NCBI RefSeq assembly: GCF_003386795.1
Contig: NZ_QTUC01000001.1
Coordinates: 372,001 to 436,000 of the forward strand
DNA length: 64,000 bases
Direction: 5' to 3'
From: Thermasporomyces composti
Lineage (GTDB): Bacteria; Actinomycetota; Actinomycetes; Propionibacteriales; Actinopolymorphaceae
In this document: in pieces, positions 22,154 through 40,055 of the stretch
Numbering within the stretch: position 1 is the stretch's first letter
How the letters are laid out: every line of letters begins with the position of its first letter
Translations under genes and position numbers: made by a program
The notes under the pieces: generated by a model
Seen by the model: the letters and a program-made list of their open reading frames with translations, nothing else
What the model was told of the DNA's origin: nothing
The model's database searches: none

Positions 22154-23743
22154 TCACGCCAGCGCTACCAAATCCGCGTAATCGTCGCTCCAGAGATCTT
22201 CGACGCCATCCGGCAGGAGCAGCACACGCTCAGGCTGGAGCGCTTCGACCGCTCCCTCGTCGTGGGTGACCAGGACGATCGCTCCCCGGTAGGACCTGAT
22301 CGCGCCGAGGATCTCCTCCCGGGACATGGGGTCGAGATTGTTGGTTGGCTCGTCGAGCAACAGAACGTTGGCAGTCGAACACACCAAGCACGCAAGGGCG
22401 AGCCGAGTCTTCTCTCCCCCGGATAGCACGCCGGCCGGTTTGTCGACGTCATCCCCGCTGAACAGGAAGGAGCCGAGGATCCCACGGGCTTCAATGTCGG
22501 ACAAATGTGGTCCAGCCGACAACAGATTGTGTAGAACACTGCGGTCGAGATCGAGTGTTTCGTGCTCCTGGGCGTAGTAACCCAACCGCAGACCGTGTCC
22601 AGCCTCGACGACTCCGGTGTCCGGCTCCTCCACGCCTGCGAGGATCTTGAGCAAGGTTGTCTTGCCGGCGCCGTTGAGCCCCAGGACCACCACGCGACTG
22701 CCTCGATCGATCGCGAGGTCGACGTCTGTGAAGACCTCCAGCGATCCGTACGACTTGGAGAGCCCGGTGGCTGTCAATGGTGTCTTGCCGCACGGCGCGG
22801 GTTCGGGCAGACGGATGCGCGCGACCTTCTCCGGACGGCGCGGCGGCTCCACCGCCGCCAGCATCCGCTCGGCCCGGCGGGCCATGTTCTTGGCGGCGAC
22901 CGCCTTGGTGGCCTTCGCGCGCATCTTCTCGGCCTGGGCGAGAAGTGCCTGCGCCTTGCGCTCGGCGTTGGCGCGCTCCCGCTTGCGGCGACGTTCGTCG
23001 GCCTCACGCTGCGTGAGGTAGGTCTTCCACCCGACGTTGTGGATGTCGAGCTCGGCCCGGTTGGCGTCCAGGTGGAAGACCCGATTGACCACGGCTTCCA
23101 GCAGGCTGACGTCGTGGCTGATCAACACGAGACCGCCCTTGAAGCCCTTGAGGAACTCCCGCAACCACGCGATGGAGTCGGCGTCGAGGTGGTTCGTCGG
23201 CTCGTCCAGCAGCAGGGTGTCGGCACCGGAGAACAGGATCCGGGCGAGCTCGATTCGACGCCGCTGCCCACCCGAGAGCGTGCCCAGCGGCTGGTTCAGC
23301 ACCCGGTCCGGCAGGCCGAGGCTCCTCGTCACCTGGGCCGCCTCCGCTTCGGCCGCGTACCCGCCGCGGGCGAGGAACTCCGCCTCGACGCGGGCGTACC
23401 GTCGCATCGCCCGCTCGCTCCCACTGGCCGCCATCTCCTGCTCGCGGGCCCGGAGAGCACGCACCAGCTCATCGAGGCCACGCGCTGACAGAACCCGGTC
23501 GCGCGCTGTCACCTCGAGATCGCCGGTGCGTGGGTCTTGCGGCAGGTAGCCGACCGAGCCGCTGCGCGTGACCGTGCCGGCCGCCGGCAGGCTCTCGCCG
23601 GCGAGAACCCGTGTGAGCGTGGTCTTGCCGGCCCCGTTCCGCCCAACGAGCCCGATCTTGTCGCCTGGGGACACGCGGAAGGACGCGTTCGCGAGGAGAA
23701 GACGGGCGCCGGCTCGCAGCTCGAGATTGCTAGCGGTGATCAT
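22154..23743 (-). CDS. ABC-F family ATPase (ribosome-acting)
   Basis: 529 residues with two ATPase domains and no membrane segments. First domain: GRNGAGKTT, LSGGQRRRIELA, LLLDEPTNHLD. Second: GLNGAGKTT, LSGGEKTRLALA, LLLDEPTNNLD. The linker (about residues 230-305) is a highly charged helical pair typical of the P-site-tRNA interaction motif. ABC-F proteins act on the ribosomal E site in translation control or antibiotic resistance; which applies here cannot be told. There is no extended C-terminal coiled coil, unlike Uup. The gene's 3' third looks lower in G+C than the rest. Confidence 0.93.
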   Translation of the reverse strand: MITASNLELRAGARLLLANASFRVSPGDKIGLVGRNGAGKTTLTRVLAGESLPAAGTVTRSGSVGYLPQDPRTGDLEVTARDRVLSARGLDELVRALRAREQEMAASGSERAMRRYARVEAEFLARGGYAAEAEAAQVTRSLGLPDRVLNQPLGTLSGGQRRRIELARILFSGADTLLLDEPTNHLDADSIAWLREFLKGFKGGLVLISHDVSLLEAVVNRVFHLDANRAELDIHNVGWKTYLTQREADERRRKRERANAERKAQALLAQAEKMRAKATKAVAAKNMARRAERMLAAVEPPRRPEKVARIRLPEPAPCGKTPLTATGLSKSYGSLEVFTDVDLAIDRGSRVVVLGLNGAGKTTLLKILAGVEEPDTGVVEAGHGLRLGYYAQEHETLDLDRSVLHNLLSAGPHLSDIEARGILGSFLFSGDDVDKPAGVLSGGEKTRLALACLVCSTANVLLLDEPTNNLDPMSREEILGAIRSYRGAIVLVTHDEGAVEALQPERVLLLPDGVEDLWSDDYADLVALA

Positions 23744-24055
23744 TCAGTAGCTCTCCGGAGTCGATCGGACACAGGGAAAGGGCGTCGGCGTTGGCTGTCC
23801 GATCAAGAGGTCCGGATGAGCATGAGGTTCAGTGTAGAGAACGGGATCTCCCAGCCGCATCCGAGGATCGGGCCGGGACGCTTCTCGGCGCCCAACCCGC
23901 ATACGCTGAGCCTCGGCCATTCCGACCAGCTGCAGCCCTCGGGCCCGGTTGGCCGGCCGAGGACGCCCCTCGGCCGTTGGTCGACCGAGGACGCCGGAGC
24001 TGAGGACGCCGAAACGCAGGACTCAACGCTCAGGACCCCGAAACGGAGCCCGTCG
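23744..24055. promoter_or_regulatory. 312-bp bioY leader with hairpin and direct repeats
   Basis: No supported coding sequence. A perfect stem of nine pairs lies at 23954-23976 (CGGCCGAGG / CCTCGGCCG, loop ACGCC). GAGGACGCC occurs three times (23959, 23987, 24002). A 21-base segment at 23999-24019 is repeated with three mismatches at 24028-24048, whose end contains the GGAG ribosome site of bioY. It looks like a control region for the biotin operon. It does not contain the BioQ-type TGAAC-N3-GTTCA palindrome or an obvious BirA site. Confidence 0.45.
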
Positions 24056-24676
24056 ATGCCGTCCAGCCGTCTATCCACCCGTGACCTGGCGCTCGTGGCG
24101 CTCTTCGCGGCGCTGCTGGCCGCGCTCGGGCTTCCTGGGACGTTCTACCTCTTCGGCACCGCGGTCCCCATCACCGCGCAGACGTTGGGCGTCATGCTCG
24201 CCGGGTCGATCCTCGGCGCGCGCCGCGGCTTCCTCGCGGTGGCGACGTTCGTCGTCCTGGTCCTCGCCGGACTGCCCCTGCTCGCCGGTGGGCGCGGCGG
24301 ACTCGGCGTCCTCGCCGGAGCATCCGCGGGGTACTTCGTCGCGTTCCCACTCGGAGCCTGGGTCACCGGCTGGTTGACCGAGAAGGCGATGCCGCGTTAC
24401 TCGACGCTCTACGGCTTCATCGCGAACGTCATCGGCGGCATCGTGGTCGTCTACGCGATCGGGATTCCCGTGCAAGCCTGGCGGACGGGGACGACCGGCG
24501 TGGTCGCCGCCGTCGTCGCCGGCCTGGTGTTCCTGCCGGGCGATCTCCTCAAGGCGGTGGTGGCGACCGCCGTCGCCAAGGGGGTGCACGCCGGCTACCC
24601 GACCCTCGCCCGCGATACCGTTCGCCACGATGGCCATCTCCCGAGACGTGATACGACGGGCGGCCGCCCAACCTGA
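24056..24676 (+). CDS. bioY: biotin ECF transporter substrate-binding subunit
   Basis: S-component that binds biotin in the membrane. 206 residues with about six hydrophobic helices. The BioY hallmarks are visible: VPITAQTLGVMLAGSILGARRG, then GYFVAFPLGAWVTG and a final LPGDLLKAVVATAVAKGV. The ATG was chosen for GGAG 7 bases upstream and similarity starting just after it. The last 15 or so residues run into the next gene, overlapping it by 47 bases. With bioM and bioN four genes later it makes a complete biotin transporter. Confidence 0.94.
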   Translation: MPSSRLSTRDLALVALFAALLAALGLPGTFYLFGTAVPITAQTLGVMLAGSILGARRGFLAVATFVVLVLAGLPLLAGGRGGLGVLAGASAGYFVAFPLGAWVTGWLTEKAMPRYSTLYGFIANVIGGIVVVYAIGIPVQAWRTGTTGVVAAVVAGLVFLPGDLLKAVVATAVAKGVHAGYPTLARDTVRHDGHLPRRDTTGGRPT

Positions 24677-25934
24677 CCGGCCCGCCGTCACCGGGCCGTG
24701 CGGGCCGGTGAGCTTCGGAGAGCTCGCCGCCCGCGGCCGGGCGCGCGCCGACGAGCTGGCCGCGCGGGGCGTCGGCCCTGGGCAGCAGGTCGTCACCAGC
24801 GACGGTGACGTCGTAGCTCTCCTCGTCGACCTCCTCGCCGCCGACCTCTTGGGCGCGGCCACCGTCGTGACCGACGCCCGGTGGCCGGACTCCGTCCGAG
24901 CCGCGGCCGTCCAGGCGGCCGCGTCCGCGGCGGCACCGCACGGCGACGACGTCTGTCTCGTGGTGTTCACCTCGGGCAGCACGGGCACACCGAGGCCGGT
25001 GGCGCGCACGCGGCAGTCGTGGACGTTCAGCTTCCCAGCCTTCTCGGCGCTCACCGGGGTGGGCGACGCCGACACGGTGCTGATTCCCGGCGGGCTGTCG
25101 TCCAGCCTGTTCCTCTTCGGCGCGCTGCACGCCCTCACCATGGGGGCGGCCATCCATCCGCTCCCCCGGTGGTCGCCCGAGGCGGCCGCCGACGCCTGCC
25201 AGCACTGCACGGCGGTCCACGCGGTCCCGGCGATGCTCGCGGCGCTGGCCGACCGTCTCGAGCCGGCCAGGAGCAGACTGCGGACCGCCGTCTGTGGTGG
25301 GGCCCACCTCAGGCAGGACGTCGACGCCGCCCTTCGCCGTGCCGGTGTGACCGTGGTCGACTACTACGGAGCCGCCGAGCTGTCGTTCGTGGCGATCCGG
25401 CGGCCGGGCGCACCCGCCGGAGTCATGCGACCGTTCCCGAACGTCGAGGTCGACATCCGCGACGGCGTGATCTGGGCACGCAGCCCGTACCTCGCACTGA
25501 GCGTGGAGCGTGACCACGCTGGCTTCGCCACCGTCGGTGACCTCGGCGTCCGTCGCGACGATGGCACTCTCACCGTCGCGGGCCGCGCCGACGGCGTCAT
25601 CACCACCGGTGGGTCCACGATCATCCCCGAGGCGGTCGAGGAGGTCCTGCGCCACGCACCGAACGTCGCCGACGTGGCGGTCGTCGGACGAGCGCACGAC
25701 ACGCTGGGCGAGGTCGTCGTCGCGGTCGTGGAACCAGGTGACGACGGCGTCGCGCTCCACGACCTGCGCAGGAACCTCCGCGCATGGGCGGCGGAGCACC
25801 TCACCCCCGCGGAGCGACCACGGGTGTGGTACGCCGTCGACCGGCTCCCGCGGACCGCCTCGGGCAAGGTCGCCCGGGCTCAGGTCGTCGCCGGGCTGGC
25901 GGACGGAACTCTCAGCGCGCGGACCCTGTCGTGA
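24630..25934 (+). CDS. acyl-CoA ligase-like AMP-forming enzyme (YhfT-like) in biotin operon
   Basis: 434 residues, shorter than the usual 500-550 of acyl-CoA synthetases. All core motifs of the adenylate-forming family are present: P-loop FTSGSTGTPRPVAR, YYGAAELSF, TVGDLG, and the A10 motif PRTASGKVAR with the catalytic Lys. It should activate a carboxylic acid to an acyl-CoA. Position between bioY and bioM mirrors, from memory, the Bacillus bioY-yhfT-yhfS neighbourhood, so biotin, a biotin catabolite or pimelate are attractive substrates, but this is inference. It overlaps bioY by 47 bases and the thiolase by 4 (GTGA). No clear ribosome site. Confidence 0.85.
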   Translation: MAISRDVIRRAAAQPDRPAVTGPCGPVSFGELAARGRARADELAARGVGPGQQVVTSDGDVVALLVDLLAADLLGAATVVTDARWPDSVRAAAVQAAASAAAPHGDDVCLVVFTSGSTGTPRPVARTRQSWTFSFPAFSALTGVGDADTVLIPGGLSSSLFLFGALHALTMGAAIHPLPRWSPEAAADACQHCTAVHAVPAMLAALADRLEPARSRLRTAVCGGAHLRQDVDAALRRAGVTVVDYYGAAELSFVAIRRPGAPAGVMRPFPNVEVDIRDGVIWARSPYLALSVERDHAGFATVGDLGVRRDDGTLTVAGRADGVITTGGSTIIPEAVEEVLRHAPNVADVAVVGRAHDTLGEVVVAVVEPGDDGVALHDLRRNLRAWAAEHLTPAERPRVWYAVDRLPRTASGKVARAQVVAGLADGTLSARTLS

Positions 25935-27130
25935 TCGCCACCAAGCCCCATCCACGCACACCGGTCATCGTCGCCGCACGGCGCACCGCGATCGGCACCG
26001 CCGGCCGGGCATTGGCCGACGTCCCGGTCGAGCGACTCGCCGCGCCGGTCCTCCGGGCGCTGCTGGACGACCTCGCCGCACGACCGGCGGAGGCGAGCAA
26101 GGACCGGCTCCCCCCGGTCGCCGACGTCATCCTCGGAAACTGCATGGGACCGGGCGGCAATGTCGCGCGGGTGGCCACGTTGGCTGCTGGGCTGGGCCCG
26201 GACGTACCGGGGCTGACCCTCGACCGGCAGTGCGGCAGCGGTCTCGAGGCCATCACGCTCGCCGGCAGTCTCGTCCTCGCCGGCCGGGGCGACCTCTATC
26301 TCGCCGGCGGGGCGGAGAGCGCCTCCACCGCCCCGATCCGCGCGTGGCGCCCGAAGCGACCCGGCGACCCGCCGCGTCCGTACGAGCGGGCGCCATTCGC
26401 GCCACCCCCCTACACCGATCCGGACATGGGCGTCGCCGCCGACCGAGTAGCCCAGGAGGCGGGCGTGAGCCGAGCGCGGCAGGACGCTTACGCCGCCCGC
26501 AGCCACGCTCGGGCCGTCGCCGCCATCGAGGCGAAGCGCTTCGCGCGCGAGATCGTCCTCCTGGGCGGCGTCGACCGGGACGAGCGTCCCCGCGCCGGGC
26601 TGACCCCCGAACGCCTCGCCCGGCTGCGTCCGGCGTACGTGCCCGAGGCGGAAGGCGGAACCGTCACCGCGGGCAACTCGTGCGGCGTCAACGACGGAGC
26701 CGCGGCGGTCGCCGTCGTCCCCGACCACGTTCGGGTGGACCACGGGTGGCCCGGCCTCGCCCTCCTCGACTGGGAATGCGCCGGCAGCGACCCTGACCGA
26801 CCAGGTCTCGGGATGGTCCCAGCGGTTCGCCGGCTGCTCGCCCGCACCGGGCTCCAGCTCGACGACATCGGCGCGATCGAGCTGGTGGAGGCGTTCGCCG
26901 GTCAAGTGCTGGCCTGTGCCGACGCGCTCGGCCTCGATCCAGACCGGATCAGTCCCGACGGGGGGACCCTGGCCCTCGGCCACCCGTGGGGCGCGAGCGG
27001 GGCCCTCCTGCTCGTGCGGCTCTTCAGCCGGATGGTTCGCGAGGACGGGCCGGACCTGGGCTTGGCGGCCGTCTCCATCGGCGGCGGGATGGGTGTCGCC
27101 GCCCTCGTGCGGAAGGTTCCTGAGCCGTGA
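25931..27130 (+). CDS. thiolase-like protein with substituted second catalytic Cys
   Basis: 399 residues, thiolase fold. The nucleophilic Cys is present (LDRQCGSGLEAI) and so is the His of GHPWGASG. But the second catalytic Cys of the CxGGGxG motif is Ser (VSIGGGMG), and the NEAFA motif reads VEAFA. It may therefore not perform normal thiolysis or Claisen condensation. The GTG start overlaps the ligase stop (GTGA), and its own stop overlaps bioM, so it is translationally locked into the bio operon. Alternatives: an acyltransferase, a binding protein, or a thiolase with an altered mechanism. Confidence 0.88.
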   Translation: MIATKPHPRTPVIVAARRTAIGTAGRALADVPVERLAAPVLRALLDDLAARPAEASKDRLPPVADVILGNCMGPGGNVARVATLAAGLGPDVPGLTLDRQCGSGLEAITLAGSLVLAGRGDLYLAGGAESASTAPIRAWRPKRPGDPPRPYERAPFAPPPYTDPDMGVAADRVAQEAGVSRARQDAYAARSHARAVAAIEAKRFAREIVLLGGVDRDERPRAGLTPERLARLRPAYVPEAEGGTVTAGNSCGVNDGAAAVAVVPDHVRVDHGWPGLALLDWECAGSDPDRPGLGMVPAVRRLLARTGLQLDDIGAIELVEAFAGQVLACADALGLDPDRISPDGGTLALGHPWGASGALLLVRLFSRMVREDGPDLGLAAVSIGGGMGVAALVRKVPEP

Positions 27131-27801
27131 TCCGAGTGCGCGAGGTCACCCACCGCTACGGTGACCGGGTCGTCTTGGACTCGATCGACGTCGAGCTCAC
27201 CGAGCGCCGCATCGGCATCGTCGGAGCGAACGGCTCGGGGAAGTCGACCTTCGCCCGGCTGCTCAATGGCCTGGTCATCCCGACACACGGCCGCGTCGAG
27301 GTGGACGGGTTCGACACCAGGACGCACGGGCGCGAAGTCCGACGACGCGTGGGGTTCGTCTTCACCGACCCGGAGGCCCAGGTCGTCATGCCCACCGTGG
27401 CCGAGGACGTGGCGCTCGGGCTCCGGCGACTCGGCCTTCCCCGCGCCGAGGTCGCCCAACGGGTTTCGCAGACGCTCACCCGCTTCGGGCTGGCCGAGTA
27501 CGCGGACCACCCGGCTCACCTGCTGTCGGGCGGCCAGCTCCAGCTGCTCGCCCTGGCCAGCGTGCTGGTCACCGAGCCACGGACCCTCGTCTGCGACGAG
27601 CCGACCACGCTCCTCGACCTGCGCAACGCCCGAATGGTCACCGAGCTGCTGGCGAGCCTCCCCCAACAGGTCATCCTGGTCACCCACCACCTCGACCTGC
27701 TCGCCGGCTTCGAGCGCGTCCTCGTCCTGCACGAAGGGCGCGTCGTCGCCGACGCCGGCGCGAGCGAGGCGGTGGCGTTCTACCGGAGGCTTGTGGCGTG
27801 A
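27127..27801 (+). CDS. bioM: biotin ECF transporter ATPase
   Basis: 224 residues, ATPase of the energy-coupling module. Walker A GANGSGKST, Q-loop FTDPEAQ, signature LSGGQ, Walker B LVCDEPTTLLD and a His in VTHHLDLL are all intact. Short actinobacterial/proteobacterial BioM type rather than the longer EcfA. GTG start overlaps the thiolase stop; its stop overlaps bioN (GTGA again). Powers import of biotin bound by BioY. Confidence 0.93.
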   Translation: MIRVREVTHRYGDRVVLDSIDVELTERRIGIVGANGSGKSTFARLLNGLVIPTHGRVEVDGFDTRTHGREVRRRVGFVFTDPEAQVVMPTVAEDVALGLRRLGLPRAEVAQRVSQTLTRFGLAEYADHPAHLLSGGQLQLLALASVLVTEPRTLVCDEPTTLLDLRNARMVTELLASLPQQVILVTHHLDLLAGFERVLVLHEGRVVADAGASEAVAFYRRLVA

Positions 27802-28415
27802 GCCTGTCGACGCACGTTCACCTCGGCCTCTACCAGCCCGGCTCGTCCCCCGTGCACCGCATGCCGGCTGGGATCAAGCTGGTGGCGCTCGCCGTCGTCG
27901 CAGTTGGGATCCTCCAGGTCTCTCGCCTGGCCACGCTCGGGCTCGTCGCGGCGGCCACGGTGTTGCTCACCGCGGTCGCCCGCGTACCGTGGCGGGTGGC
28001 CCTGGCGCAGGTGAGACCGGTGTGCTGGGTCGCCGCGCCGCTCCTGGTCTTCCAGTGGGTGACCGCCGGCCCGGACCAAGCGCTGCTCGTCGTGGGGCAG
28101 CTGCTCATCCTCGTCGCGCTCGCCGCACTGGTCACGCTCACGACTCGGGTGTCGGCCATGCTCGACGCCATCGAGGCGGCGGCTCGCCCGCTCGTCCGCC
28201 TCGGGATCAACCCCACCCGGGTGGCGCTCGTCCTCGCGCTCACCGTGCGCTGTGTGCCGCTGGTCGCGCGTTGCTACGCCGAGGCACGGGAGGCCCAGAA
28301 GGCCCGTGGTCTGGACAACCGCCCCTCGGCGCTCGTCGTCCCCCTGGTCATCCGGCTGGTGAAGAAGGCCGACGCGATCGGGGCCGCGCTGGCCGCCCGA
28401 GGCGTGGACGACTGA
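27798..28415 (+). CDS. bioN: biotin ECF transporter transmembrane coupling subunit
   Basis: 205 residues, four or five hydrophobic helices. The EcfT family coupling motifs (Ala-Arg-Gly type) are present as AQKARG near residue 170 and AALAARG near the C-terminus; these contact the ATPase. Last gene of the five-gene bio operon, GTG start overlapping bioM. Convergent with the GNAT gene. Confidence 0.92.
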   Translation: MSLSTHVHLGLYQPGSSPVHRMPAGIKLVALAVVAVGILQVSRLATLGLVAAATVLLTAVARVPWRVALAQVRPVCWVAAPLLVFQWVTAGPDQALLVVGQLLILVALAALVTLTTRVSAMLDAIEAAARPLVRLGINPTRVALVLALTVRCVPLVARCYAEAREAQKARGLDNRPSALVVPLVIRLVKKADAIGAALAARGVDD

Positions 28416-29042: not shown

Positions 29043-29927
29043 TCAGTGAACCGGCGGCTCGGCCGCGGCCACCTGCGCGGCCACGCGTTGCTTGGTGGCC
29101 CCGAGGAGCTCTGAGATCTCCCACGCGGCCGCGGCGACCCTCGGGCCGAGCTCCTCCATGCGCTCCTCAGGCATGCGCACCTCGGGCGCGGACACGCTCA
29201 CCGACGCCACCGTGGCACCAGCGTCGTCGAAGATCGCCGAGGCGATCGTGTGGACGCCCTCGGTGCGCTCGGCATAGGAGAACGCGATGTTGTGTGCCCG
29301 AATCTCGGCCAGCTGTTTGCGCAGCAGGACGGGGTCTGTGACGGTGCGCGGCGTGGCGGCCGGGATCGGGCGAGCCAGGATCGTCTCCTGAATCGAGTAC
29401 GGCAGGTGCGCGAGCATCGCTTTGCCGGGCGCGCCGAGGGGCAAGGGGATGGGAACCCCGAACTCGGTGTAGGCGCGGCGAAGTGGCTGGCGGCTCTCGA
29501 CTTGGTCGATGACCGCCCGCTCGTGCGTGGGCAGGAGGACATGCAGTCCGATGGTCTCGTCGATGTCGTCCCGCAGCGTGGTCATCACCGGGAGAGCGAC
29601 ATCGCGCAAGGTCGCGGTGACCGTGCCGCCGCGCGCCAGCTGCAGCAGCAGCGGACCCAAGGCGTAACGGCGGTCGCTCGTCTGGCGAACGAGCCGGTTG
29701 TCCTGGAGAGCGCTGAGAAGCCGGTGGGTCGTACTCGTCGACAGGCCAGTCATCCGCGCGATCTCGCTGATCCCGAGCTCAGGGCGGTCAAGGCTGAAGC
29801 AACGAAGGATCGCGGCGGCTCGGTCGATCGACTGAACGCCCCGACGGCGCGCGCTGGGCGCGTCCGTCCCGGCCTCGCTCGCCTCGTGCGGTGCATCGGT
29901 CGTGTGTGGAGAGCTCGCGGACCCCAC
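29043..29927 (-). CDS. IclR-family transcriptional regulator
   Basis: 294 residues. Winged helix-turn-helix at about residues 33-90 (QSIDRAAAILRCFSL, LGISEIARMTGLSTSTTHRLL), then the IclR effector domain with the LPLGAPGKAMLAHLP stretch. Divergent from the enoyl-CoA hydratase gene across about 90 bases, so it probably controls that gene and itself in response to a small carboxylate or aromatic acid; ligand unknown. Confidence 0.93.
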   Translation of the reverse strand: MGSASSPHTTDAPHEASEAGTDAPSARRRGVQSIDRAAAILRCFSLDRPELGISEIARMTGLSTSTTHRLLSALQDNRLVRQTSDRRYALGPLLLQLARGGTVTATLRDVALPVMTTLRDDIDETIGLHVLLPTHERAVIDQVESRQPLRRAYTEFGVPIPLPLGAPGKAMLAHLPYSIQETILARPIPAATPRTVTDPVLLRKQLAEIRAHNIAFSYAERTEGVHTIASAIFDDAGATVASVSVSAPEVRMPEERMEELGPRVAAAAWEISELLGATKQRVAAQVAAAEPPVH

Positions 29928-30016
29928 CCAGCCTCCTCGCCGAGCGTTCCAGATACAGGACAGTTACCCCACTTTTCGGCATCAACGGCCTCTGTGGCAA
30001 GGAGGGAAAGACGCAC

Positions 30017-30835
30017 ATGCCAGCTAGCCCCGAAGCCGACGACGACAGGTGTGGACTCGTGACCGACGACCTCGTGGTGAACCGTGACGGCGCCATCGCG
30101 ACCGTCCTCCTCAACCGACCAGCCACGCACAACGCCATCACGCTGGCGATGTACACCGCCCTCCCCATGATCATGACCGATCTCGCCAGCGACCCGTCCG
30201 TCAGGGTGGTCGTCTTCCGTGGCGCCGGCACGAAGGCGTTCGCGTCCGGGGCGGACATCAGCGAGTTCGAGCGCGTGCGAGGGGACGCCGTCAGCGCACG
30301 CGCCTACAACGAGAAGGTGGCCGCGGCGGAGCGGGCGATCGAGGAGTTCCCCAAGCCCACGATCGCCATGATCCACGGCTATTGCATCGGCGGCGGTGCC
30401 GGCCTCGCTCTGGCCACCGATTTGCGTTTCGGGGACGAGCACACCGAGGTCGCCATCACGCCGGCCAAGCTCGGCCTCGTCTATGGCCTCGAGTCGACGA
30501 GACGACTGGTGGACCTGGTAGGGCCGGCGCGGGCCAAGTGGATGCTCATGTCCGGCGAGCAGATCCACGCCGAGGACGCCCTGCGTCTCGGACTGCTCGA
30601 CGAGCTGGTGCCGGCGGACACGTTGGAGGACCGCACCTACGACTTCGCGCGGTTGCTGACCACTCGTGCGCAGTTCAGCGTCCGAGCCGCCAAGACGATG
30701 GTCAACCGGATTGTCGACGGTCAGCGCACGGACGACGAGCTGACCGCGCACCTGCGCGATTCGTGCTTCGACACCGCGGACTACCGCGAAGGGGTCCGTG
30801 CGTTCCTGGAGAAGCGACCGCCACGCTTCGGGTAG
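30017..30835 (+). CDS. enoyl-CoA hydratase/isomerase family protein
   Basis: 272 residues, crotonase fold. The oxyanion-hole motifs are visible (FASGADISEF and HGYCIGGGAGLALATDLRF). The catalytic glutamates of classical hydratase (two Glu in the loop and in the GxxE segment) are not both evident: the second region reads AITPAKLGLVYGLES. Therefore another crotonase reaction (isomerase, decarboxylase or hydrolase) is possible. GGAGGG lies 10 bases upstream of the ATG. Single gene divergent from its likely IclR regulator. Confidence 0.9.
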   Translation: MPASPEADDDRCGLVTDDLVVNRDGAIATVLLNRPATHNAITLAMYTALPMIMTDLASDPSVRVVVFRGAGTKAFASGADISEFERVRGDAVSARAYNEKVAAAERAIEEFPKPTIAMIHGYCIGGGAGLALATDLRFGDEHTEVAITPAKLGLVYGLESTRRLVDLVGPARAKWMLMSGEQIHAEDALRLGLLDELVPADTLEDRTYDFARLLTTRAQFSVRAAKTMVNRIVDGQRTDDELTAHLRDSCFDTADYREGVRAFLEKRPPRFG

Positions 30836-33920: not shown

Positions 33921-34244
33921 TCAGACGTTGAAGCCGAGAGCCCGCAGCTGCTCGCGGCCCTCATCGGTGATCTTGTCGGGCCCCCACGGCGGCATCCACA
34001 CCCAGTTGATGCGGAACGCGTCGACGACGCCGTCGAGCGCCACCTGCGCCTGGTCCTCGATCACATCCGTGAGCGGACAGGCCGCCGAGGTGAGCGTCAT
34101 GTCGATCGTCGCCACGCCGTCGTCGTCCAGCTTCACGCCGTAGACCAGACCGAGGTCGACGACGTTGATGCCGAGCTCGGGGTCGACCACATCCTTCAAC
34201 GCCTCGAGGATGTCGTCCTCCGTCGTCCGCACGCCATCGGTCAT
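33921..34244 (-). CDS. sufT: SufT-like Fe-S assembly factor (DUF59/MIP18)
   Basis: 107 residues. DUF59 domain with DPELGINVVDLGLVYGV and the conserved reactive Cys in LTSAACPLTD. Aids maturation of Fe-S proteins. Overlaps sufU by 4 bases (stop/start), the usual actinobacterial order at the end of the suf operon. Confidence 0.92.
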   Translation of the reverse strand: MTDGVRTTEDDILEALKDVVDPELGINVVDLGLVYGVKLDDDGVATIDMTLTSAACPLTDVIEDQAQVALDGVVDAFRINWVWMPPWGPDKITDEGREQLRALGFNV

Positions 34245-34752
34245 CGGCCGGCTCCCTCCTTGTTGGCCTGCCCATCGAGGCCACCGCCGGGCCGCGAGGC
34301 TTGGTCACGGCCGAGGGCCCGAGCGGTGGCGTCCTTCCACGCCATCCACGCCAGCAAGGCACACTTGATCCGCGCCGGGTACTTCGAGACCCCAGCGAAG
34401 GCGATCCCGTCCTGAAGGACCTCTTCGTCGGGTTCGACCTGGCCCTTGGATTGCATGAGGGCCACGAACTCGTCGTGCACCCGCATGGCGTCCTCGAGTC
34501 GCTGGCCACGCACGAGGTCGTGGAGCACCGAGGCGGCGGCCTGGCTGATGGAGCAGCCCACGCTGTCGTACGAGACGTCATCGATGCGCACGTCGTCGCC
34601 CTCACCGGCCAGGCGCACCCGAAGGGTCACCTCGTCGCCGCAGGTGGGGTTGACGTGGTAGGCCTCGGCGTCGTACGGCTCCCGCAGGCCCTTGCCGTGC
34701 GGGTTCTTGTAGTGGTCCAGGATGATGTCCTGGTAGAGCGTCTCGACCTGCA

Positions 34753-34753
<1 letters not shown>
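34241..34753 (-). CDS. sufU: SufU, zinc-dependent sulfur acceptor of SufS
   Basis: 170 residues, Fe-S scaffold-type protein. Receives persulfide sulfur from SufS in actinobacteria and firmicutes. Ligands are visible: Asp and Cys in NPTCGDE, Cys in SVGCSIS and Cys in IKCALL. The insertion typical of SufU compared with IscU (about residues 70-100) is present. ATG overlaps the sufS stop by one base (TGATG). The C-terminal 20 residues are low-complexity. Confidence 0.94.
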
Positions 34754-36872
<2,119 letters not shown>

Positions 36873-36891
36873 GAGGGATCTGGCTCCAGTC

Positions 36892-37233
36892 CTAGGCAGG
36901 TCGTTCGATGTTGTTCAACGGGTGGTGGACGTCGACGTAGACGTCGTCGCCCTCCACCTTCACCGGGTACACAGGTACCGGCTCGGTCGCCGGCAGACCC
37001 GTCGGCTGTCCGGTCGCGAGATCGAAACGGGATCCGTGCAGCCAGCACTCGATCTCGCCGTCCTCGACCTCGCCCTCCGACAACGCCACCTCCTCATGGG
37101 AGCAGACGTCGTAGATGGCGTGCAGCTGGTCACCGGACCGCACGATCGCGACCGGGACGCCGTCGAGCACAACCGGAACCGGGCTGGCCTCGGTCACCTC
37201 AGCCAGCGCGCAGGCGCGTTGGAAGTCGCTCAT
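36892..37233 (-). CDS. Rieske-type ferredoxin subunit in the suf operon
   Basis: 113 residues. [2Fe-2S] Rieske ligands in VCSHEEVALSEG (Cys-x-His) and CWLHGSRFD (Cys-x2-His). Such a small bphA3/NirD-like ferredoxin is regularly found between sufD and sufC in actinobacteria; it may donate electrons for cluster assembly, which is inference. Only 3 bases from sufD. Confidence 0.93.
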   Translation of the reverse strand: MSDFQRACALAEVTEASPVPVVLDGVPVAIVRSGDQLHAIYDVCSHEEVALSEGEVEDGEIECWLHGSRFDLATGQPTGLPATEPVPVYPVKVEGDDVYVDVHHPLNNIERPA

Positions 37234-37236
37234 CGC

Positions 37237-38583
37237 TCACACCTCCGATCGCGCCCCGGGCGTCGCGCCGGACGACGCGGGCGGCAGGCCGATGCTGCGC
37301 TCGAGCTCCGCCTCGACCCGCTGCATCAGCCGGTCCCGCAGCTCCGGGACGCCGATCTGACGGATCAGGTCGGCGAAGAAGCCGTGCACCACCAGGCGGC
37401 GCGCCTCGTCGGTCGGGACACCGCGCGACTGCAGGTAGAACAGCTGCTCGTCGTCGAAACGCCCCGTCGCACTGGCGTGTCCCGCGCCCTCGATCTCGCC
37501 GGTCTCGATCTCCAGGTTCGGCACGGAGTCTGCTCGGCATCCGTCCGTCAACATCAGGTTGCGGTTGTGCTCGTAGGTGCGGATGCCCTCCGCCACCTTG
37601 CGGATCAACACGTCGCCGACCCACACCGCGTGCGCGCCCTTGCCCTGCAGCGCGCCCTTGTACTCGACGTTGCTCTGGGTGTGTGGGTGGTTGTGGTCGA
37701 CGAACAGCCGGTGCTCGAGGTGCTGGTCGGCGTCGACGAAGTACAGGCCGAGCATCTCCACCTCGCCGCCCGGACCGGCGTAGTCGACCTGGGCGTAGAG
37801 GCGGACGAGGTCGCCGCCGAAGGTGACGGCCACGTGCTTGACCGTCGCGTCACGGCCGACCCGGAGCGCCTGGTGGACGGCGTGGACCGCGTCGTCCTCC
37901 CAGTCCTGCATGGAGACGACGGTCAGCCGCGCTCCCTCGCCCACGGCGAACTCCACGTTGGCCGCGTGCGTCGCCGAGCCCACGTGGTCGAGGATCACGA
38001 CGGCCTCGGCGTAGGGCTTGACGTCGACCACGGTGTGCCCGTAGCTCGCTCCGCTCGCGTCCTCGCCGCGCACGGTCAGAACGACCGGCCGGTCGAGTCG
38101 AGCGTCCTGGGGCACCGTCACGACGGTGGCGCTCTGGAAGGAGGTCCACGCCTGGGCGCTGACGCGGTCCCCGGGGACGTAGACCGAGCCCAAACGCGGG
38201 TCGTCTCGGCCCACCGTCTCGACGCGCACCTCCGCCGGCGCGTCGACGCTGGTGACCACCTTGCCGTCCGGCGACGCCGTGCCGTCGGTCAGTCCACGCA
38301 ACCGCTTGAGCGGCGTGAACCGCCAGACCTCCTCCCGTCCCGTGGGGACCGGGTGGTCGGCGAGGTCGAACGAGCCGGTCGGGTGCAGGTGCGAGGCGGG
38401 CGCGGACTCCGCGCCGGCGCCATGCGCGTGCGCACGCCCGGCCGCGCCGGCCGGTGTCGCGGAACCCGCGGTGGCGCCGGACTCGGGCGAGAGCACCTGG
38501 GAAGCCGCGGCGGCGGGTTCCCCCGCGGCCACCTCACCGGTGCGGATCTGGTCGTGGTCAGGCATGTCGGATGTCGCTCTCAC
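37237..38583 (-). CDS. sufD: SufD scaffold protein
   Basis: 448 residues, right-handed beta-helix core. Typical segments: EEVWRFTPLKRLRGL near residue 89 and FYLQSRGVPTDEARRLVVHGFFADL near the C-terminus, as in SufB/SufD. The N-terminal 70 residues are an Ala-rich low-complexity extension. Partner of SufB and SufC. Confidence 0.95.
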   Translation of the reverse strand: MRATSDMPDHDQIRTGEVAAGEPAAAASQVLSPESGATAGSATPAGAAGRAHAHGAGAESAPASHLHPTGSFDLADHPVPTGREEVWRFTPLKRLRGLTDGTASPDGKVVTSVDAPAEVRVETVGRDDPRLGSVYVPGDRVSAQAWTSFQSATVVTVPQDARLDRPVVLTVRGEDASGASYGHTVVDVKPYAEAVVILDHVGSATHAANVEFAVGEGARLTVVSMQDWEDDAVHAVHQALRVGRDATVKHVAVTFGGDLVRLYAQVDYAGPGGEVEMLGLYFVDADQHLEHRLFVDHNHPHTQSNVEYKGALQGKGAHAVWVGDVLIRKVAEGIRTYEHNRNLMLTDGCRADSVPNLEIETGEIEGAGHASATGRFDDEQLFYLQSRGVPTDEARRLVVHGFFADLIRQIGVPELRDRLMQRVEAELERSIGLPPASSGATPGARSEV

Positions 38584-38642
38584 CTTCTCGTCGTACGGAC
38601 ACCTGGTCGACGCGGCTGCCCGGCCGCGTCCGCTGGGCCGGA

Positions 38643-40055
38643 TCAGCCGACGGCCCCCTCCATCTGCAGCTCGATGAGGCGGTTGAGCTCCAGCGCGTAC
38701 TCCATCGGGAGCTCACGCGCGATCGGCTCCACGAAACCGCGGACGATCATCGCCATCGCCTCGTCCTCGTTGAGCCCGCGGCTCATGAGGTAGAAGAGCT
38801 GGTCGTCGGTGACCTTGGACACCGTCGCCTCGTGGGCCATCTCCACGTCGTCTTCCCGGACGTCGACGTAGGGGTAGGTGTCGGAGCGGCTCACCGTGTC
38901 GACGAGAAGGGCGTCGCACTTCACCGTGCTCTTGGAGTGCTCGGCGCCTTCCCGGACCTCGACCAGGCCACGGTAGGAGGTACGACCACCGCTTCGCGCG
39001 ACGGACTTGGAGACGATCGTGGACGACGTCCGAGGCGCGCAGTGGACCATCTTGGCGCCGGCGTCCTGGTGCTGGCCCTCGCCGGCGAAGGCGATCGAGA
39101 GCGTCTCCCCCTTGGCGTGCTCACCCATGAGGTAGACGGCCGGGTACTTCATCGTGACCTTGGACCCGATGTTGCCGTCGACCCACTCCATGGTCGCGCC
39201 CTCGGCCGCCGTGGCCCGCTTCGTCACGAGGTTGTAGACGTTGTTGGACCAGTTCTGGATCGTGGTGTACCGGCAGCGGCCGTTCTTCTTCACGATGATC
39301 TCGACCACCGCGGCGTGCAGCGAGTCCGACTTGTAGATCGGAGCCGTGCAGCCCTCGACGTAGTGCACGTAGGCACCCTCGTCCACGATGATCAACGTCC
39401 GCTCGAACTGGCCCATGTTCTCGGTGTTGATCCGGAAGTAGGCCTGGAGCGGAATCTCGACGTGGACGCCCGGCGGCACGTAGATGAACGAGCCACCCGA
39501 CCACACGGCGGTGTTGAGCGCGGCGAACTTGTTGTCACCCGGCGGGACGACCGTCCCGAAGTACTCCTGGAAGATCTCCGGGTGCTCCTTCAGGCCGGTG
39601 TCGGTGTCGAGGAAGATCACGCCCTGCTGCTCGAGGTCCTCCCGGATCTTGTGGTAGACGACCTCGCTCTCGTACTGGGCCGCGACACCAGCGATGAGAC
39701 GCTGCTTCTCCGCCTCGGGGATGCCGAGTCGGTCGTAGGTCCTCCGGATGTCCTCGGGCAGTTCGTCCCAGCTCGTGGCCTTCTTCTCCGTCGAGCGCAC
39801 GTAGTACTTGATGATGTCGAAGTCGATCTCCGACAAGTCGGCGCCCCAGGTGGGCATCGGCTTGCGGTAGAACGCCTTCAGCCCGCGGAGCCTGATGTTC
39901 AGCATCCACTCGGGCTCGTTCTTGAGCGCGGAGATCTCGCGGACGACCTCTTCGGACAGGCCGCGCTTCGCGGTGGCGCCCGCGATGTCGCGGTCGGCCC
40001 AGCCGTACTGGTAGCGTCCGAGACCCTCGAGCTCGGGATGGGCGGTGCTCGTCAT
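38643..40055 (-). CDS. sufB: SufB Fe-S scaffold
   Basis: 470 residues. The main scaffold on which clusters form. Typical SufB regions: [21 protein letters not shown] near the N-terminus, and the conserved Cys in VEGCTAPIY (about residue 233). [21 protein letters not shown] near the C-terminus is diagnostic. The GTG/ATG region overlaps the sufR stop by 4 bases, and a 59-base gap separates it from sufD. Confidence 0.97.

Follow-up and report, generated by a model that had tools for sequence, protein, structure and literature searches.

The window, by which the whole analysed stretch of 64,000 nucleotides of Thermasporomyces composti DNA is meant (contig NZ_QTUC01000001.1, positions 372,001 to 436,000), contains a five-gene operon on the + strand at 24056-28415. 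The operon consists of bioY, a gene of an AMP-forming CoA ligase, a thiolase-like gene, ecfA and ecfT (Table 1). All five frames were intact, the sole stop in each being the terminal one, and the Pfam matches of all five genes exceeded the gathering cut-offs. The five-gene biotin operon that had been proposed earlier from the DNA letters (the original prediction) was thereby confirmed. The same prediction had the genes joined end to end by GTGA junctions; this was correct for three of the four junctions, with 4-nt GTGA overlaps at ligase-thiolase, thiolase-ecfA and ecfA-ecfT, and incorrect for bioY-ligase, where the overlap is 47 nt.

Table 1. Genes of the operon and a candidate upstream element, in window positions (aa, amino acids; ECF, energy-coupling factor).
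Feature	Position	Strand	Details
bioY, S component of the predicted biotin ECF transporter	24056-24676	+	206 aa; PF02632 119.8 bits
AMP-forming acyl-CoA ligase	24630-25934	+	434 aa; PF00501 116.4 and PF13193 65.1 bits
Thiolase-fold enzyme	25931-27130	+	GTG start, 399 aa; PF00108 (Thiolase_N) 177.5 and PF02803 (Thiolase_C) 104.5 bits
ecfA/bioM, ECF ATPase	27127-27801	+	224 aa; PF00005 (ABC_tran) 90.9 bits
ecfT/bioN, ECF transmembrane (T) component	27798-28415	+	205 aa; PF02361 (CbiQ) 54.1 bits
Speculative operator	23763-23804		inverted repeat GATCGGACA-N24-TGTCCGATC, between the divergent ABC-F gene and bioY

The BioY S component, the ATPase and the T component encoded in the operon, each over its Pfam cut-off, are a predicted biotin ECF transporter by family membership. 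The best NCBIfam model of ecfA was TIGR04520 (ECF_ATPase_1) with 195.6 bits, below the cut-off of 315. The single BioY match of the window genome, at C1:396158-396589, lies inside the bioY of the operon.

The window ligase is short, and a Paracoccus relative of 381 aa is shorter still. Its motifs were located at residues 113 (P-loop FTSGSTGTPR), 245 (YYGAAE), 302 (VGDL) and 409 (TASGK, with K413), and S115, G116, E250, D304, R319 and K413 were invariant in the ligase alignment of 22 sequences. The P-loop, YGxxE, the D, the R and the C-terminal catalytic Lys are the catalytic motifs of ANL ligases. As the protein has the two ANL domains and none of the usual catalytic residues is missing, it is likely to be active. 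The best of the 92 NCBIfam families matched was PRK07638 (NF005797), which we take to be the YhfT family of Bacillus; the score was 188.2 bits compared with a cut-off of 518, and the same model ranked top for 8 of the 9 scanned ligase relatives. The structural model of the ligase, with a predicted local distance difference test (pLDDT) value of 90.3, was best aligned with the MenE chain 5x8f_D (Z 35.4, root-mean-square deviation (rmsd) 3.3, 414 aligned). The comparison returned ANL-ligase neighbours, MenE and other CoA ligases, and gave no clue to the substrate.

The thiolase-like enzyme scored 327.6 bits with TIGR01930, over the cut-off of 240.55. Its second NCBIfam model was PRK06690 (NF005212), which is presumably the YhfS family of Bacillus, with 313.9 bits compared with a cut-off of 498, and this model was first or second for all 8 scanned thiolase relatives. 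The structural model (pLDDT 94.1) was aligned with 1wl4 (Z 57.0, rmsd 1.8, 375 aligned), differences of up to 1 in Z counting as ties; the comparison resulted in ordinary thiolases along the full length and again in no substrate clue. With ordinary thiolases (Z. ramigera, ThlA, BktB, FadA) the enzyme shares the whole fold, the nucleophilic Cys and the GHP His, whereas the rest of the active site is altered. The window enzyme retains C101, the nucleophile that corresponds to Cys89 of Z. ramigera, and the GHP histidine H351 (His348), and carries V319 in place of Asn316 (NEAF), S382 in place of Cys378 and C251 in place of Ser247.

The residues at these positions were counted in 124 rows, of which 122 were distinct; the rows come from related species and hence are not independent. 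All 122 distinct relatives had the equivalent of Cys89, and all 119 that were readable at the other position had His348. Cys378 was detected in none of the 118 readable relatives, being replaced by Gly (86), Ala (30) or Ser (2), with four rows gapped. Position 247, which we take to be the active-site serine of ordinary thiolases, was Cys in 110 of 121. Of 120 readable relatives, 87 had Asn316 and the others V, T or M; all 28 readable window-type sequences (loci L002-L030 of the class sample) had V or T. Among the control thiolases, three from the window genome and 25 from its order and mostly of one subfamily, Cys378, Ser247, Asn316 and His348 were present in 28 of 28. According to the available part of PMC3406046, Cys378 of the Z. 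ramigera thiolase is the base that takes the proton from the substrate. The loss of Cys378 and Asn316 in the window enzyme had not been foreseen in the original prediction.

With the window ligase as query (E<=1e-40), 35 of the 296 genomes of the class sample were matched, its own genome included. In the 29 loci obtained with short flanks from 29 of the 34 other carriers (L002-L030), BioY was found at most 1.2 kb and the thiolase at most 0.7 kb from the ligase in every case. The link between BioY, ligase and thiolase is not a matter of chance, because the partners lie near the ligase in 29 of 29 loci, and the predicted tie of the two enzymes to the BioY/ECF transporter is thereby upheld. A BioY match adjoined the ligase in all 35 class carriers, 34 of which had no second BioY. 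BioY was present in 35 of 35 carriers compared with 191 of the 296 genomes of the sample, and in all 56 ligase-bearing genomes that were searched. The order BioY-ligase-thiolase was observed in 20 of 20 enlarged class loci; ecfT came next in 19 of them (the contig ends in the remaining one) and ecfA was found in 12. Seven loci (L130, L133, L135, L136, L137, L139, L140), all from one family of the sample, had bioY-ligase-thiolase-ecfT with no ecfA match in the stretch read, and their ATPase may be provided from elsewhere in the genome.

The arrangement was also found far outside the class. Of eight plasmid loci selected by us from the match lists, six had both partners near the ligase (Azospirillum, Paracoccus, Nonomuraea, Streptantibioticus); on the Alloyangia plasmid BioY was 1.8 kb away on the opposite strand, and the Rhizobium phaseoli plasmid had the ligase with no BioY nearby. 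The genome_contigs set was scanned once, the query being an alignment of five ligases with an Azospirillum protein at its head; the best 80 matches resulted in 79 loci, a few of them truncated by contig ends. In this best-80 set, BioY was near the ligase in 58 of the 79 loci, the thiolase in 69 and both in 50. The taxa were Rhodospirillaceae, Rhizobium, Sinorhizobium, Shimia, Streptomyces, Nocardiopsis, Actinoplanes, Leptolyngbya, Virgibacillus, Oceanobacillus, Metabacillus and other Bacilli. BioY, ligase and thiolase occur together in Actinomycetes, Alphaproteobacteria, Cyanobacteria and Bacilli. Six loci of alphaproteobacterial metagenome-assembled genomes (MAGs; L067, L068, L069, L071, L072, L074) had EcfA-EcfT-BioY-ligase without a thiolase. 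In Tistrella (L075) and Pelosinus (L076) neither BioY nor a thiolase accompanied the ligase, and these two loci may hold a different ligase.

A Bacillus ligase query matched 60 of 200 Bacilli genomes (E<=1e-50). Among the best 30 loci of this search, BioY and thiolase were both near in 10 (one being the genome of the query), the thiolase alone in 6 and neither in 14. The order bioY-ligase-thiolase was seen in Bacilli loci as well. The likeness to the Bacillus bioY-yhfT-yhfS locus, named in the original prediction, is supported by gene order and by PRK07638 and PRK06690 as the best specific models. A locus order not conserved in other genomes had been named there as one result that would refute the idea; the order was conserved throughout the enlarged class loci and the link recurred in other lineages, so this test did not refute it.

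Other genes were detected beside some of these loci. A DUF1330-type gene lay upstream in the six thiolase-less MAG loci, and the scan of one of them, L067, also showed a CitMHS-type transporter. On the Alloyangia and Paracoccus plasmids (L033, L035, L038) a nitroreductase-family gene lay beside ligase-thiolase on the opposite strand, and in the Azospirillum loci L031, L037, L047-L057 and L065 a major facilitator superfamily transporter gene followed the thiolase.

Partner enzymes were counted in the 79 genome_contigs loci with named family queries at 40 bits or more, up to 6 kb per side. Medium-chain dehydrogenases/reductases (MDR) were found in 36 loci, 4HBT_2 thioesterases in 31, both in 31 and short-chain dehydrogenases/reductases (SDR) in 18. 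The SDR gene directly followed the thiolase only in L090 and L093, and half of a HadAB-like dehydratase did so in four Bacilli loci. The MDR-thioesterase pair was present in Rhizobium, Sinorhizobium, Streptomyces/Nocardiopsis, Actinoplanes, one Aestuariivirgaceae MAG and one Rhizobiaceae MAG, and its varied arrangements across these lineages argue for a working link. The model names of the MDR proteins were weak (quinone oxidoreductase PIG3, acryloyl-CoA reductase; all below cut-off). The MDR, SDR and HadAB-like partners fit chain lengthening better than beta-oxidation, because the latter would need an acyl-CoA dehydrogenase.

To describe the biotin status of the carriers, BioB (model TIGR00433), BioA (TIGR00508), BirA and BioY were searched in 56 ligase-bearing genomes, 35 of the class and 21 reached via the loci, with the genomes of L073 and L083 outside the set. 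In the window genome, which is one contig and 97.6% complete, BioB scored 27.6 bits at best, below the cut-off of 225, and the search for BioA gave no match at E<=1e-80. The window bacterium seems to be unable to make biotin, as predicted from its gene content. The check for bioA proposed in the original prediction found none at this threshold, and its suggestion that the operon makes pimeloyl-CoA for new biotin was not supported. BioB was over the cut-off in 16 of the 56 carriers and BioA in the same 16, while neither was in the other 40, the window genome included; without two doubtful carriers (G298 and G299, both with BioB) the BioB count was 14 of 54. BirA was over the cut-off in all 56. 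In the 40 carriers without BioB, pimeloyl-CoA, 7-keto-8-aminopelargonic acid (KAPA), 7,8-diaminopelargonic acid (DAPA) and dethiobiotin would not be convertible to biotin by the known route.

The region upstream of the operon is occupied by an ABC-F ATPase gene (22154-23743), which lies on the opposite strand and is divergent from bioY; its score of 384.1 bits was just over the NCBIfam cut-off of 380 for ribosomal-protection-like ABC-F proteins. Seven inverted repeats were found in 23744-24060, the speculative operator of Table 1 among them. Riboswitch control was rejected, as there was no Rfam match within the window at the gathering score. At the 3' side a GNAT gene, an IclR regulator gene and an enoyl-CoA hydratase gene are located. 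The IclR-type gene (-) is divergent from the hydratase gene (+), the two spanning 29043-30835, with the hydratase at 29891-30835, 1.5 kb downstream of the operon. Queries for IclR and enoyl-CoA hydratase had no match of at least 40 bits beside 20 other window-type loci, where the other query matches were one ABC-F and one ABC protein, in single loci each. Genes of SUF iron-sulphur assembly are found at 34241-40055 (-): two SufBD-core genes, an ABC ATPase and a NifU-like domain.

The preferred reading, to which we give a probability of about 0.4, is that the operon serves BioB-independent salvage of biotin vitamers by lengthening a shortened side chain, such as that of bisnorbiotin, by two carbons. 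Bisnorbiotin is a known product of biotin beta-oxidation and is two carbons shorter than biotin. BioY with EcfA/EcfT would import biotin together with ring-intact, side-chain-shortened relatives, above all bisnorbiotin. The ligase would convert the shortened acid to its CoA thioester, and the thiolase-fold enzyme would load the acyl group on Cys101 and add a two-carbon (C2) unit. Without Cys378, this step would proceed either by decarboxylating condensation with malonyl-CoA or by condensation via the relocated Cys251. Removal of the 3-oxo group would next require a ketoreductase, a dehydratase and an enoyl reductase, after which biotin would be released for BirA by a thioesterase. Candidates for the later steps are encoded in the same locus in some lineages (SDR, the HadAB-like pair, MDR, 4HBT_2); in the lineage of the window, housekeeping enzymes would do them. 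The genes and their order, the distribution, the missing BioB and BioA, the altered active site and the families of the neighbours were observed directly; the substrate, the direction, the C2 donor and each of the reactions are what we infer from the genomic context. A wider form of this reading, a cross-phylum biotin repair that would rebuild the valerate chain of environmental bisnorbiotin with the catalytic Cys moved from 378 to 247 or with malonyl-CoA as the donor, is put forward more tentatively.

The substrate is suggested by four pointers. The biotin transporter in the operon argues for a biotin-like acid, repression by biotin argues for a supply role and not for destruction, the lack of BioB and BioA indicates that the ring of the substrate would already be complete, and the set of CoA ligase, condensing-type enzyme, reductases, dehydratase and thioesterase points to side-chain lengthening. 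Bisnorbiotin fits all four. The side-chain idea of the original prediction is favoured on this ground, and its pimelate idea is not. The repression itself is documented in Firmicutes: in the available part of PMC6391492, the S. aureus yhfS-yhfT promoter was repressed by BirA with biotin in a lacZ reporter, and a review, likewise available in part, describes the same for bioY, yhfS and yhfT, both in S. aureus and in B. subtilis, with BirA as the repressor (PMC11089781). A BirA-type box in a relaxed form (TTGTYAAC-N14/15-GTTRACAA, one mismatch allowed), composed after the sequences had been viewed, was found at bioY in 4 of the 6 Bacilli loci of genome_contigs and nowhere else in them, with a shuffle mean of 0.0. 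In L083 this box overlaps the called bioY start, which makes the start doubtful.

Several results weigh against the salvage reading or narrow it. The choice of the relaxed box after inspection is one of them; the strict BirA consensus fits with 1-3 mismatches, and 14 further Bacilli loci showed the relaxed box once, in a genome that had already been counted. BioR control was rejected, as no exact BioR-type box TTATMKATAA was detected in the 95 loci L031-L125. After biotin addition, the bioY and yhfT-yhfS transcripts outlast those of the synthesis operon (PMC7235819, available in part). The thiolase is the weak link of the model. Without Cys378 an ordinary acetyl-CoA condensation is not expected, and since Cys378 is lost and Asn316 is replaced as well, the making of a C-C bond may be absent in the window type; a Cys251 substitute, a malonyl-CoA donor or no C-C bond at all are the ways to account for this. 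The lengthening of a side chain by the operon is suggested by context, as is the substrate. Queries for MDR, SDR, dehydratase and thioesterase matched none of 20 window-type stretches (8-18 kb, 40 bits), and most SDR matches elsewhere do not adjoin the thiolase. In addition, ecfA is absent from 7 of the 20 enlarged window-type loci, and thioesterase-ligase-thiolase without an adjoining BioY was found in 15 Rhizobium loci of the 79.

The distribution of BioB has to be read with similar care. The system is not restricted to auxotrophs, as the 16 carriers with BioB and BioA include all four Bacilli tested. BioB was found in 145 of the 296 class genomes: 6 of the 35 carriers had it, compared with 139 of the 261 others (by genome, Fisher p 5e-5). 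By genus the p value was 0.043, and among the 191 BioY genomes, with BioB in 6 of 35 compared with 54 of 156, it was 0.046. Because the p value weakens in both cases, the enrichment in BioB-less genomes mostly tracks BioY and kinship. The firm point is that the system is present in many BioB-less genomes, and not the statistical enrichment.

The altered active site could also be explained by transfer of the acyl group without a C-C bond, which we regard as unlikely. The ligase would make biotinyl-CoA or a vitamer-CoA, and Cys101 with His351 would transfer the acyl group to an acceptor such as a carrier protein or a thiol, with the purpose of trapping or storing imported biotin. The nucleophile and His348 are indeed the only residues kept throughout, Asn316 is V or T in L002-L030, and the window-type loci have no reductive partners. 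However, the Cys at position 247 in most relatives suggests that a second function is retained, Asn316 is kept in the majority of them, and BirA in every carrier leaves no need for a second route of biotin attachment. A replacement of BirA by a ligase and acyltransferase route was rejected on the same count. Rather unlikely, in turn, is a biotin-sparing supply of lipids, where fatty acids obtained by scavenging would be activated by the ligase and then lengthened by the thiolase set without malonyl-CoA. Its premise is that in biotin shortage acetyl-CoA carboxylase fails and malonyl-CoA is depleted, so that the biotin link would be one of need and not of chemistry. It accounts for carriers among prototrophs and auxotrophs alike, the SDR, HadAB-like, MDR and thioesterase partners suit chain lengthening, and the available part of PMC6391492 refers to the two S. 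aureus proteins as putative homologues of a fatty-acid-CoA ligase and an acetyl-CoA acetyltransferase. But a bypass of malonyl-CoA requires acetyl-CoA condensation, whose base Cys378 is missing from every readable sequence; the ligase is short, and the BioY beside it in all 29 class loci would be left unexplained.

Breakdown of the biotin side chain by beta-oxidation, with biotin as a carbon source or for the disposal of its excess, is improbable. Ligase and thiolase would be its first and last steps and an enoyl-CoA hydratase gene lies downstream, behind the IclR gene; nevertheless, the hydratase and IclR genes do not recur beside the other window-type loci, thiolysis too relies on the missing Cys378, and the BioB-less carriers would destroy the vitamin that they must import. 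The repression of the S. aureus promoter by BirA with biotin (PMC6391492, in its available part) also speaks against breakdown. A supply of pimeloyl-CoA for new biotin, by activation of pimelate or lengthening of glutaryl-CoA, has very little probability left. It could apply to the 16 carriers with BioB and BioA, and 74 gut species with BioF, BioA, BioD and BioB have no known pimeloyl source (PMC6593275, as far as available), but for the 40 carriers with neither BioB nor BioA over the cut-off, the window genome among them, it is contradicted. The salvage of side-chain-shortened biotin is the reading which we retain.

That the ligase-thiolase pair belongs to the biotin regulon of Firmicutes, with no assigned job, is already known from the sources available in part. 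The window operon shares the BioY, AMP-ligase and thiolase families with bioY-yhfT-yhfS of Bacillus and with yhfS-yhfT plus bioY of S. aureus, all in the BirA regulon; it differs in that its proteins fall below the equivalog cut-offs given above, in that ecfA and ecfT are added, and in the lack of BioB over the cut-off in its genome. In bioYMN of C. glutamicum, bioY, ATPase and T component are likewise found in one operon, whereas the window has two enzyme genes between bioY and bioM; the available part of the bioYMN paper contains no match for thiolase, CoA ligase or yhf (PMC3398298). The BioW, BioC-BioH and BioZ routes also tie acyl thioester chemistry to biotin; they are understood, partly from PMC6593275 in its available part and partly from general knowledge, to feed BioF-BioA-BioD-BioB, in contrast to the 40 carriers here which have neither BioA nor BioB over the cut-off. 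In the literature searched, seen in part and with subscription papers largely outside it, no function was assigned to yhfT/yhfS or to bioY-ligase-thiolase, and the cross-phylum spread, the BioB-less carriers and the active-site change were not described, although a prior description is possible. What is new here is this spread, the occurrence in BioB-less genomes, the altered thiolase active site and the extra partner enzymes in other lineages. TenA salvages thiamin from degraded thiamin, and the idea of restoring a degraded vitamin is the same; vitamin and chemistry are different, and the likeness is an analogy only.

Even if the substrate were another one, the carriers that lack BioB and the changes in the active site make an old question directly testable with the enzyme and by growth. 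If the salvage reading is true, a natural thiolase-fold enzyme would work without the base for acetyl-CoA condensation. In a reconstruction of auxotrophies, available in part (PMC6593275), dethiobiotin, DAPA and KAPA are counted as alternative vitamers, all of which are upstream of BioB. The biotin requirement in such genome-based predictions would then be wrong in kind, and many presumed strict biotin auxotrophs could live on a breakdown product of biotin.

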